Below, piece after piece: positions 5,984 to 11,492 of a stretch of DNA of 32,209 nt. Origin of the DNA: Gammaproteobacteria bacterium (lineage in GTDB: Bacteria > Pseudomonadota > Gammaproteobacteria > Steroidobacterales > Steroidobacteraceae); contig DAIDKA010000192.1 of the NCBI GenBank assembly GCA_027451085.1, positions 1-32,209 on the forward strand. Reading direction: 5' to 3'. Positions within the stretch are counted from its first letter, which is position 1. The number at the start of each line of letters is the position of its first letter. The notes under the pieces are model-generated. The model was not told where the DNA came from. It made no database searches and saw only the letters and a list, made by a program, of their open reading frames with translations. Made by a program: the position numbers and the translations under genes.

Positions 5984-6195
5984 ATGTGGGCAGCCTGTGG
6001 ATGAGAGCGAGGCCGGATTTGATCCACAGATCGCCAACAACTCCTGTACAGGTCGCGAGATCTTTACTCCCCCACCTCCGGGAGAGGTAAGATCCTGATC
6101 AAACTGGCAGTATCAGGCTTCGTCCACGTATCCACAGCCTCTGTAGCTACTGCTTCAATCCTTATCCTAAGAACTTAAGATTTAAGAACACTCCC
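5984..6195. other. Probable chromosomal replication origin (oriC)
   Basis: dnaA-dnaN intergenic; DnaA-box-like 9-mers with one mismatch to TTATCCACA at 5996-6004 (minus, TCATCCACA), 6020-6028 (TGATCCACA) and 6128-6136 (GTATCCACA); five GATC sites at 6021, 6029, 6059, 6091 and 6097; AT-rich 3' end (ca. 6155-6190); palindrome CCTGTACAGG at 6043-6052. Confidence 0.72.
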
Positions 6196-7293
6196 ATGAA
6201 GCTCACCGCCTCCCGTGAAGACTTCCTCGGTCCTTTGCAAAGCGTCATCGGCGTGGTCGAGCGCAGGCAGACCATGCCCATCCTGGCCAATGTGCTGCTG
6301 GCCGCACGCGATGGAAAACTGAGCATCACAGGATCGGACCTGGAGGTCGAACTGGTGGCCACCCGGGCGGTGGACAGTCAGACAGACGGCGAGATCACCG
6401 TGCCGGGCCGTAAGCTGCTGGATATTTTCAAGGCGCTGCCGGAGAAGACCTCTGTCACCCTGACGTCAGAAGGCGAACGTGTGACCCTCAAGGCTGGCCG
6501 CAGCCGCTTTGCGCTGTCCAGTCTGCCGGCAGCAGAGTTCCCCCTGGTCGAGGACATCAAGGCTCAGCAGACCCTCAGCATCGCCCAGGTGGACCTGCGC
6601 AAGCTCATCGACAAAACATCTTTCGCCATGGCGCAGCAGGACGTCCGCTACTACCTGAACGGCCTGCTGCTCGAAACCGAGGCCAGGACGCTGCGCGCAG
6701 TAGCCACCGATGGTCACCGCCTGGCGCTGTGCGAAGCCGAACTGCCTGCCATGGCGACTACCGCCCAGCAGGTCATTGTGCCGCGCAAGGGAGTGTTGGA
6801 GCTGCAGCGCATCCTGGGCACGGACGGCACCGTGGAGCTGGCGATCGGCACGAATCATATTCGCGTCGAGATCGGCGATATTCGCTTTACTTCGAAGCTT
6901 ATTGATGGTCGTTTTCCGGAGTACAGCCGTGTTGTTCCGGCTAATCCGACCAAGCTCATACATACGGACCGGGATCTGCTCCGCCAGTCTCTGCAGCGTA
7001 CCGCCATCCTGTCGAACGAAAAGTATCGTGGCATTCGCCTGAATCTGAAAAGTGGCTTGCTGACCGTCCAGGCTCATAACCCCGAGCAGGAAGAGGCCGA
7101 GGACCAGGTGGAGGTAACCTACAGCGGCGAGGAGCTCGAAATCGGGTTTAACGTCAATTACCTGCTGGATGCCCTGAGTGCGCTGGACGTCGGCCAGGTG
7201 GAACTGGGTCTGACGGATTCCAACAGCAGCTGCCTGGTGCGTTCACCGGGCAAGGCGGAAGCCAGGTACGTCGTGATGCCGATGAGACTGTAA
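6196..7293 (+). CDS. dnaN: DNA polymerase III subunit beta (sliding clamp)
   Basis: 365 aa, MKLTASREDFLGPLQSVIGVVERRQTMPILANVLL...YVVMPMRL; follows dnaA. Confidence 0.98.
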   Translation: MKLTASREDFLGPLQSVIGVVERRQTMPILANVLLAARDGKLSITGSDLEVELVATRAVDSQTDGEITVPGRKLLDIFKALPEKTSVTLTSEGERVTLKAGRSRFALSSLPAAEFPLVEDIKAQQTLSIAQVDLRKLIDKTSFAMAQQDVRYYLNGLLLETEARTLRAVATDGHRLALCEAELPAMATTAQQVIVPRKGVLELQRILGTDGTVELAIGTNHIRVEIGDIRFTSKLIDGRFPEYSRVVPANPTKLIHTDRDLLRQSLQRTAILSNEKYRGIRLNLKSGLLTVQAHNPEQEEAEDQVEVTYSGEELEIGFNVNYLLDALSALDVGQVELGLTDSNSSCLVRSPGKAEARYVVMPMRL

Positions 7294-7330: not shown

Positions 7331-7819
7331 ATGCAGATCCATGAGGGCGGTTGCGGTTGTGGCGCACTGCGTTACCGGCTCAGTGGTGAGCCGATTTTCG
7401 TAAATAACTGCCACTGTACCCAGTGCCAGCACCAGACCGGGTCGACCTCGGTGGTCAACGCTTTTATTGAAAGCGAGCGAGTGCAGCTGCTGACGGGTGC
7501 AGTCACTGAGCATGTGGTCAGGGCCGGTAGCGGAGGGCCACATACTATCTGCCGTTGCGCCGTCTGCGGGGTCGCTGTGTGGAGTTACTATCCCAGGTTG
7601 GGGCGATTGGGAATGGGCATCCGGGTGGGCGCACTGGATAATCCCGGTGCATTTCGACCGGATGCGGTGATTTTCACGTCCGAGGCCATGCCGTGGGTTG
7701 CGCTACCCGAGGGCATCCCTCACTTTGAGAAGACTTACGATTTCAGATCAGTGCTGCCGCCCGAGCGTGTTGCGCGCTTGCTGGCGCTGGTGGCGCGCCG
7801 CCAGGCCGAACAGGGGTAA
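7331..7819 (+). CDS. GFA / CENP-V-family zinc-binding protein
   Basis: MQIHEGGCGCGALRYRLSGEPIFVNNCHCTQCQHQTGS...CRCAVCGVAVWSYY; Cys motifs of the GFA fold; GGAGGA Shine-Dalgarno at ca. 7317. Confidence 0.88.
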   Translation: MQIHEGGCGCGALRYRLSGEPIFVNNCHCTQCQHQTGSTSVVNAFIESERVQLLTGAVTEHVVRAGSGGPHTICRCAVCGVAVWSYYPRLGRLGMGIRVGALDNPGAFRPDAVIFTSEAMPWVALPEGIPHFEKTYDFRSVLPPERVARLLALVARRQAEQG

Positions 7820-7833
7820 ACGCCGAGACTCGA

Positions 7834-7849
7834 TGTTCCACGTGGAACA
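7834..7849. other. parS site 1 (ParB binding site), intergenic upstream of recF
   Basis: TGTTCCACGTGGAACA, matching the Pseudomonas-type parS; lies in a perfect 20-bp palindrome GATGTTCCACGTGGAACATC (7832-7851). Confidence 0.9.
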
Positions 7850-7981
7850 TCATCCAAGATGCGGCGGTGTTGACGCGAGGCGTGCCTTCCGGGTGCGGCG
7901 GAGGGGTGTATTTACCTTTGACGCCTGATTCGAGCGAGCCCGGGCCCACCATGACGTTCCAGCTTTCCCGATAAGTGCCCG

Positions 7982-9040
7982 ATGAGCCTGGAAACCCTCA
8001 ACGTCGAGAATCTCCGCTGCGTTCGGCAAGCCAGCCTGGAGTTGTCCCCGGGTCGTAGCCTGATCACAGGTGCAAACGGCTCCGGTAAGACCTCCCTGCT
8101 GGAAGCGATCTGCCTGCTGGGGCGAGGTCGTTCATTCCGTACGCGGAATTCAGAGCGACTGATCACTCACGGTGAAAGCCGGCTGGTGGTGCATGGCCGC
8201 ACGAGTGGTCTGAATCGCCCGACGATTGGAGTGCAGGTGGTCCGCGACCAGGCAACGGTGGCGAGGATCGGCGGTGAATTCACACGTTCCCTGGCAGATC
8301 TCTCCCAGGTACTGCCAGTCCAGGTCATCGAGCCCGGTGTACACAAGCTGATCGAAGATGGGGCCTTCCGGCGGCGACGCTGGATGGACTGGGCAGTGTT
8401 CCACGTGGAACAGGGCTTCGTGGAGACGTGGGCCGGGTATACCCGTGCGCTGAAGCAGCGGAATACCGCATTGAAGCAGGACTCCAGGCAACTGCGCGCC
8501 TGGGACGCAGAGGTAATCCGTCTGGGCGAGGCACTCGGCGCATCCCGCCGTAGCATGCTGGAGCGCTTGCAGCCATTCTGGCGCGAGGCCATTGCTGAAC
8601 TGCTGGGCCTGGACGTGACGCTGGGATATTCACAAGGCTGGCCCAAGGACCTCTCGTTGGCCGAAGCCCTCGTGGCGTGCCGGGAGCGGGATCTCGCCAA
8701 GGGTCAGACCCATGCAGGGCCGCACCGTGGTGATGCCGTTGTCCGGCTGGATGGCAAGCTGGCCCGTGACAACCTCTCACGGGGACAGCAGAAGCTGGTG
8801 GCGGTGGCCCTGATCCTGGCTCAATCGCGGCTGCTACAGGACCTGTTGCCAGACACCCCGCTACTGCTGCTGGATGATCCCGCCGCGGAACTGGATGGCT
8901 CGAAGCTGGCAGCTTTTATCAGCCTGGTGGCCAAACTGCGTTGCCAACTGGTCGTGACGTCATTGAGCCGCGATCAGAACCCATTCGGACCACCGGATAG
9001 GATGTTCCACGTGGAGCAGGGAAGGGTGGCAGTTATATAA
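7982..9040 (+). CDS. recF: DNA replication and repair protein RecF
   Basis: Walker A GANGSGKTSLLEAI; RSFRTRNSERLI; SRGQQKLVAVALILAQ; LLLLDDPAAELD. Confidence 0.97.
   Translation: MSLETLNVENLRCVRQASLELSPGRSLITGANGSGKTSLLEAICLLGRGRSFRTRNSERLITHGESRLVVHGRTSGLNRPTIGVQVVRDQATVARIGGEFTRSLADLSQVLPVQVIEPGVHKLIEDGAFRRRRWMDWAVFHVEQGFVETWAGYTRALKQRNTALKQDSRQLRAWDAEVIRLGEALGASRRSMLERLQPFWREAIAELLGLDVTLGYSQGWPKDLSLAEALVACRERDLAKGQTHAGPHRGDAVVRLDGKLARDNLSRGQQKLVAVALILAQSRLLQDLLPDTPLLLLDDPAAELDGSKLAAFISLVAKLRCQLVVTSLSRDQNPFGPPDRMFHVEQGRVAVI
8397..8412. other. parS site 2, inside recF coding sequence
   Basis: Perfect TGTTCCACGTGGAACA, read in recF frame as (V)FHVEQ. Confidence 0.88.
9003..9018. other. parS-like site 3, 3' end of recF
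   Basis: TGTTCCACGTGGAGCA, one mismatch at 9016; read in frame as (M)FHVEQ; the mismatch is synonymous (GAA to GAG). Confidence 0.7.
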
Positions 9041-9042
9041 GG

Positions 9043-11492
<2,450 letters not shown>

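Follow-up and report, generated by a model that had tools for sequence, protein, structure and literature searches.

Two parS sites of Pseudomonas aeruginosa, parS1 and parS2, lie inside recF, about 4 kb from oriC (PMC3909081, PMC5521831). Both bind ParB, and the intragenic sites have been destroyed without changing the protein (PMC5521831, PMC4368675). Any single one of parS1–4 is enough for segregation (PMC4368675). The window analyzed here (the whole stretch of 32,209 nucleotides) contains two parS-like palindromes within recF and one just upstream of it (Table 1). The 16-mer of window sites 1 and 2 is the same as that of P. aeruginosa parS2 and the bound parS3 (PMC4368675), while parS1 of that species is TGTTCCACGTGGAACC. 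From the positions of the synonymous mutations made in P. aeruginosa we infer the frame TTC CAC GTG GAA, as in the window recF. The recF-embedded pair of the P. aeruginosa type, two sites in the FHVE frame, is present in the window, with one site mismatched. The preliminary description implied that parS sites embedded in recF were new, which they are not, as parS1 and parS2 in recF have already been published; the arrangement is known from P. aeruginosa, and the window is a further case. The two loci differ in their other sites: the third window site is in the immediate upstream flank of recF, and parS3 and parS4 of P. aeruginosa are intergenic near PA0011–PA0013. Unlike in P. aeruginosa, the C-terminal site of the window carries a synonymous mismatch, and the 75%-complete assembly shows no conspicuous low-affinity sites at a distance. 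With chromosomal parS of the Bacillus subtilis/Caulobacter type, the window sites share the 16-bp palindrome, the CACGTG core, the origin-proximal location, and a ParB with R173 and G201 equivalents, but they are located within recF and its flank.

Table 1. Features of the origin-proximal part of the window
Feature	Position	Strand	Remarks
dnaA	4637..5983	+	TIGR00362
dnaA–dnaN intergenic region, candidate oriC	5984..6195	.	three DnaA-box-like 9-mers; weak consensus evidence
dnaN	6196..7293	+	Pfam DNA_pol3_beta domains
parS site 1 (putative)	7834..7849	.	palindrome without mismatch; between the GFA-domain ORF and recF, 148 bp before the recF start
recF	7982..9040	+	TIGR00611 equivalog, 316 bits versus cut-off 172; hosts sites 2 and 3
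parS site 2 (putative)	8397..8412	.	perfect; in recF codons F140-H-V-E-Q144; internal position conserved class-wide
parS site 3 (putative)	9003..9018	.	one synonymous mismatch (GAG); RecF C-terminal codons F342-H-V-E-Q346
gyrB	9075..11492	+	Pfam DNA_gyraseB, GyrB_insert

The gene order is yidC–rnpA–dnaA–dnaN–(extra GFA-domain ORF)–recF–gyrB, with rnpA assigned by position and sequence alone. A scan of the window with TGTTCCACGTGGAACA gave 0 mismatches at sites 1 and 2 and one mismatch at site 3, which reads TGTTCCACGTGGAGCA, in agreement with the positions and mismatch counts first described. No further match with ≤3 mismatches was found in the 32 kb, and the shuffled window gave a mean of 0.16 such matches, with three in 0 of 100 shuffles. 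Measured against the parS consensus, a 16-bp palindrome, two sites are perfect and one has a single mismatch. Sites 2 and 3 share one recF phase, xTG TTC CAC GTG GA(A/G) CAG, and both read FHVEQ; the mismatch of site 3 is GAA to GAG and is synonymous, and reading recF confirmed these three points of the preliminary description. Of the three parS sites it had placed across recF, sites 2 and 3 are indeed inside the gene, but site 1 is intergenic, between the GFA-domain ORF and recF. The distances of 563 and 606 bp were given correctly, but they are unequal, and calling them regular carries no meaning. A meaningful regular spacing was rejected, since the 606-bp distance follows the length of RecF (603–669 bp in 152 loci with both recF sites) and the 563-bp distance is not conserved in relatives. 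The best cluster of DnaA-box-like 9-mers (5996–6136; boxes at 5996, 6020, and 6128, each with one mismatch) is in the dnaA–dnaN gap, and the candidate oriC is based on gene order and these weak boxes. The parS sites are 1.7–2.9 kb from the cluster, which makes "about 2 kb" from the putative oriC a fair estimate. The ORF inserted between dnaN and recF (7331–7819) is of the glutathione-dependent formaldehyde-activating enzyme type, and it is absent from this place in the 19 related loci L017–L035 (in L023 and L025, no dnaN was in the stretch read).

The source assembly has 2.47 Mb in 348 contigs and is 74.9% complete, so that the counts cover about three quarters of the genome. In it, the three window sites are the only ones with ≤1 mismatch. 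A single site follows at two mismatches, and those with three mismatches are at the chance level (17 sites at ≤3 mismatches versus 18 for a reversed-pattern control). The sites in this 75%-complete assembly are thus few, clustered near the candidate oriC, and not dispersed. A parB–parA–rsmG cluster, with parA and rsmG assigned by sequence and order, is on contig C63, separate from the window contig. Its ParB matches TIGR00180 at 5e-60. In an alignment to the Caulobacter ParB structure 6t1f, the ParB retains R173 and G201, which contact parS and were reported to be absolutely conserved among ParB orthologs (PMC7383237). Positions 179/184 are L/E, not K, which are parS-type rather than Noc-type residues (for the roles of the specificity residues including these two, see PMC7383237). 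Many equally good dispersed sites and the lack of a chromosomal parB had been named as observations against a parS identity; neither was found, as the next best site of the 75%-complete assembly has two mismatches and parB occurs with parA. The identity of the sites as parS is well supported by the match to the consensus, the absence of dispersal, and the presence of parB and parA. As a whole, these sequence features are best explained if the window sites are origin-proximal parS of a chromosomal ParABS system, to which we assign a probability of about 0.9. We infer the events in the source organism from work on P. aeruginosa and other ParABS systems: ParB (with ParA, encoded on C63) would nucleate on the palindromes and spread along the dnaN–recF–gyrB region, and ParA would move the ParB complex so that the sister origins separate. 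The recF codons at the two positions would then be kept by both ParB binding and RecF function.

Whole-protein searches for RecF covered 120 genomes of the family and 276 of the class. The family set consists of 96 recF loci and the class set of 111 gammaproteobacterial recF loci, all with about 1 kb flanks. Most families in the class set are represented by one or two loci; the class loci are 80 from the upper score list, 30 that were deliberately chosen lower, and one complete genome. Loci from a search with peptide patterns (WMDWAVFH and DRMFHVEQ) were kept out of the frequencies because the patterns favor loci with sites. Sites of relatives were scored with the form GTTYCACGTGRAAC. Such a site is present at the internal RecF position in 94/96 family loci and 70/80 upper class loci, and at the C-terminal position in 74/95 and 70/77, respectively. 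At least one of the two positions has a parS in 94 of the 96 family loci and 99 of the 111 class loci (both positions in 78, one in 21, and neither in 12). The 19 non-gammaproteobacterial recF loci have neither a site nor FHVE at the two RecF positions. In this comparison, the two positions (FHVE from 140 and 342) are old, shared putative parS positions of Gammaproteobacteria. In most of the class, as sampled by these loci, a centromere would be written through a conserved protein. A literature search, which did not cover the survey by Livny et al. (2007), found no account of class-wide recF parS or of codon freezing. We claim no priority for these sequence-level observations, which give a wider comparison than was open to the preliminary description.

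The palindromes might instead bind another regulator or a roadblock protein that controls recF–gyrB transcription and have no centromere function. ParB in excess lowers the expression of genes around parS1–4 in P. aeruginosa, and binding at such sites can thus affect transcription (PMC5521831). However, the 16-mer matches at every base parS2 and parS3, for which binding has been shown by experiment (PMC4368675), parB was found in 57/57 gammaproteobacterial genomes tested, and the sites are absent from the 19 non-gammaproteobacterial loci, which makes control by another protein very unlikely. The 57 genomes include six that miss one or both recF sites; because all of them have parB, whether parS presence tracks parB presence was uninformative.

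A different objection to selection on parS is that the 16-mers could be a by-product of RecF conservation, FHVE being encoded twice with ordinary codon bias and without selection at the DNA level. E. coli K-12 has no parS at the two RecF places, which read GCTTTCACAACGAACC (FHNE) and TGTTTACCGTGGAAAA (FTVE), and Enterobacteriaceae are without par genes (PMC4368675). The retention of FHxE at the internal and FxVE at the C-terminal place indicates that the peptide motif is at least partly constrained by RecF. The codons were examined by comparing the commonest codon of each conserved RecF column with each gene's own usage for the amino acid in question. Of 71 conserved columns in the class set, the top six were those of the H, V, and E codons in the two sites, with z values of 8.5 to 12.5, whereas the other columns had a mean of 1.45 and a highest value of 8.0. 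The latter belongs to the P-loop serine and is probably caused by the AGY/TCN split. CAC was used at H141 in 95/99 and at H343 in 90/94 genes (47.2 and 44.9 expected from the usage of the same genes), GTG at V142 in 92/95 and at V344 in 91/95 (35.7 and 36.2 expected), and GAA at E143 in 84/86 and at E345 in 79/82 (44.2 and 42.9 expected). The z values ignore relatedness, and the remaining columns, which share the tree, act as a control. In the family set (122 columns), the first eight were seven of the eight site columns and the flanking V139. The preliminary description had suggested that recF codon choice is constrained by parS function, and the test on orthologs is strongly in its favor.

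Several variants keep the palindrome at the expense of the peptide. The two halves of the palindrome co-vary at positions 5 and 12: an A at position 12 turns E into K, and position 5 is T in 24/28 sites with this A (FHVK) and in 58/149 sites with G (GC3-stratified permutation, p = 0.0002); a tree-based sign test of positions 5 and 12 gave the same direction and was non-significant on supported branches. Both sites of locus L274 are TGTTTCATATGAAACA, read as FHMK, and the internal site of L277 is TGTTCTACGTAGAACA, which changes RecF from FHVE to FYVE; the full palindrome is kept in each. Six genomes of genus g14 have lost the C-terminal site and have an extra site within recF in another frame, which reads VSRGT. 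The frozen codons and this other-frame site indicate that the conservation is of DNA, not of the peptide alone. Six columns more codon-frozen than any other conserved column, copies in intergenic DNA (site 1) and in another frame, and palindrome-keeping variants with altered amino acids all stand against a by-product of RecF conservation, an account we consider scarcely credible. With a centromere within recF, conservation of the RecF residues at these positions cannot be ascribed solely to constraint on the protein. A practical warning also follows: recoding recF synonymously can break chromosome segregation. Comparing the synonymous and palindrome-keeping variants that occur in nature offers a test of ParB specificity and of how many parS are needed. 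In L185, L180, and L274, both recF sites of each locus share one rare change (CACATG, CATGTG, and CATATG core, respectively), which suggests a lineage-specific ParB preference.

The number of sites near recF may also be maintained. Exactly two sites are present in 77/96 family loci (stretch read). Among the family loci with an internal site, an extra nearby site occurs in 19/20 that lost the C-terminal site and in 13/74 that kept it. These losses correspond to about four independent events on the family tree, nearly all in the same direction, and the accompanying gain of a site is suggestive at this number of cases. Site 3 of the window is alone among about 207 loci in having GAG at an intact C-terminal FHVE, and its variable position is A in 190/191 class sites. 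GAA to GAG is also among the changes in the synonymous knock-outs of P. aeruginosa (PMC4368675), and site 3 is probably weakened. Site 1 is missing from the nearest relative (L017), which has two recF sites only and no GFA ORF between dnaN and recF; the flank where site 1 lies also carries sites in several family members that lost the C-terminal one. The GAG of site 3 together with an extra perfect upstream site makes the window resemble decay and replacement. That site 3 is decaying while site 1 compensates is a tentative reading, from one genome and an association, and we place it somewhat below an even bet. Even odds may be given to a wider proposal, in which a centromere would have been part of the recF coding sequence from an early stage of the Gammaproteobacteria onward, as two sites at fixed positions with frozen codons and with palindrome-keeping E to K, V to M, and H to Y changes, about two sites would be kept near recF by gain upon loss, and the window would represent a replacement under way.

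Unusually many sites were observed in two loci. L023 has seven parS-like sites over 4.3 kb (offsets −3862 to 418 from the recF start), upstream of and inside recF, and a check of the 3.5 kb preceding recF found no dnaN. L131 (genus g4) has seven parS sites at offsets 415 to 2015 from the recF start, five of which come after the usual pair of recF positions, forming an unusually dense cluster.
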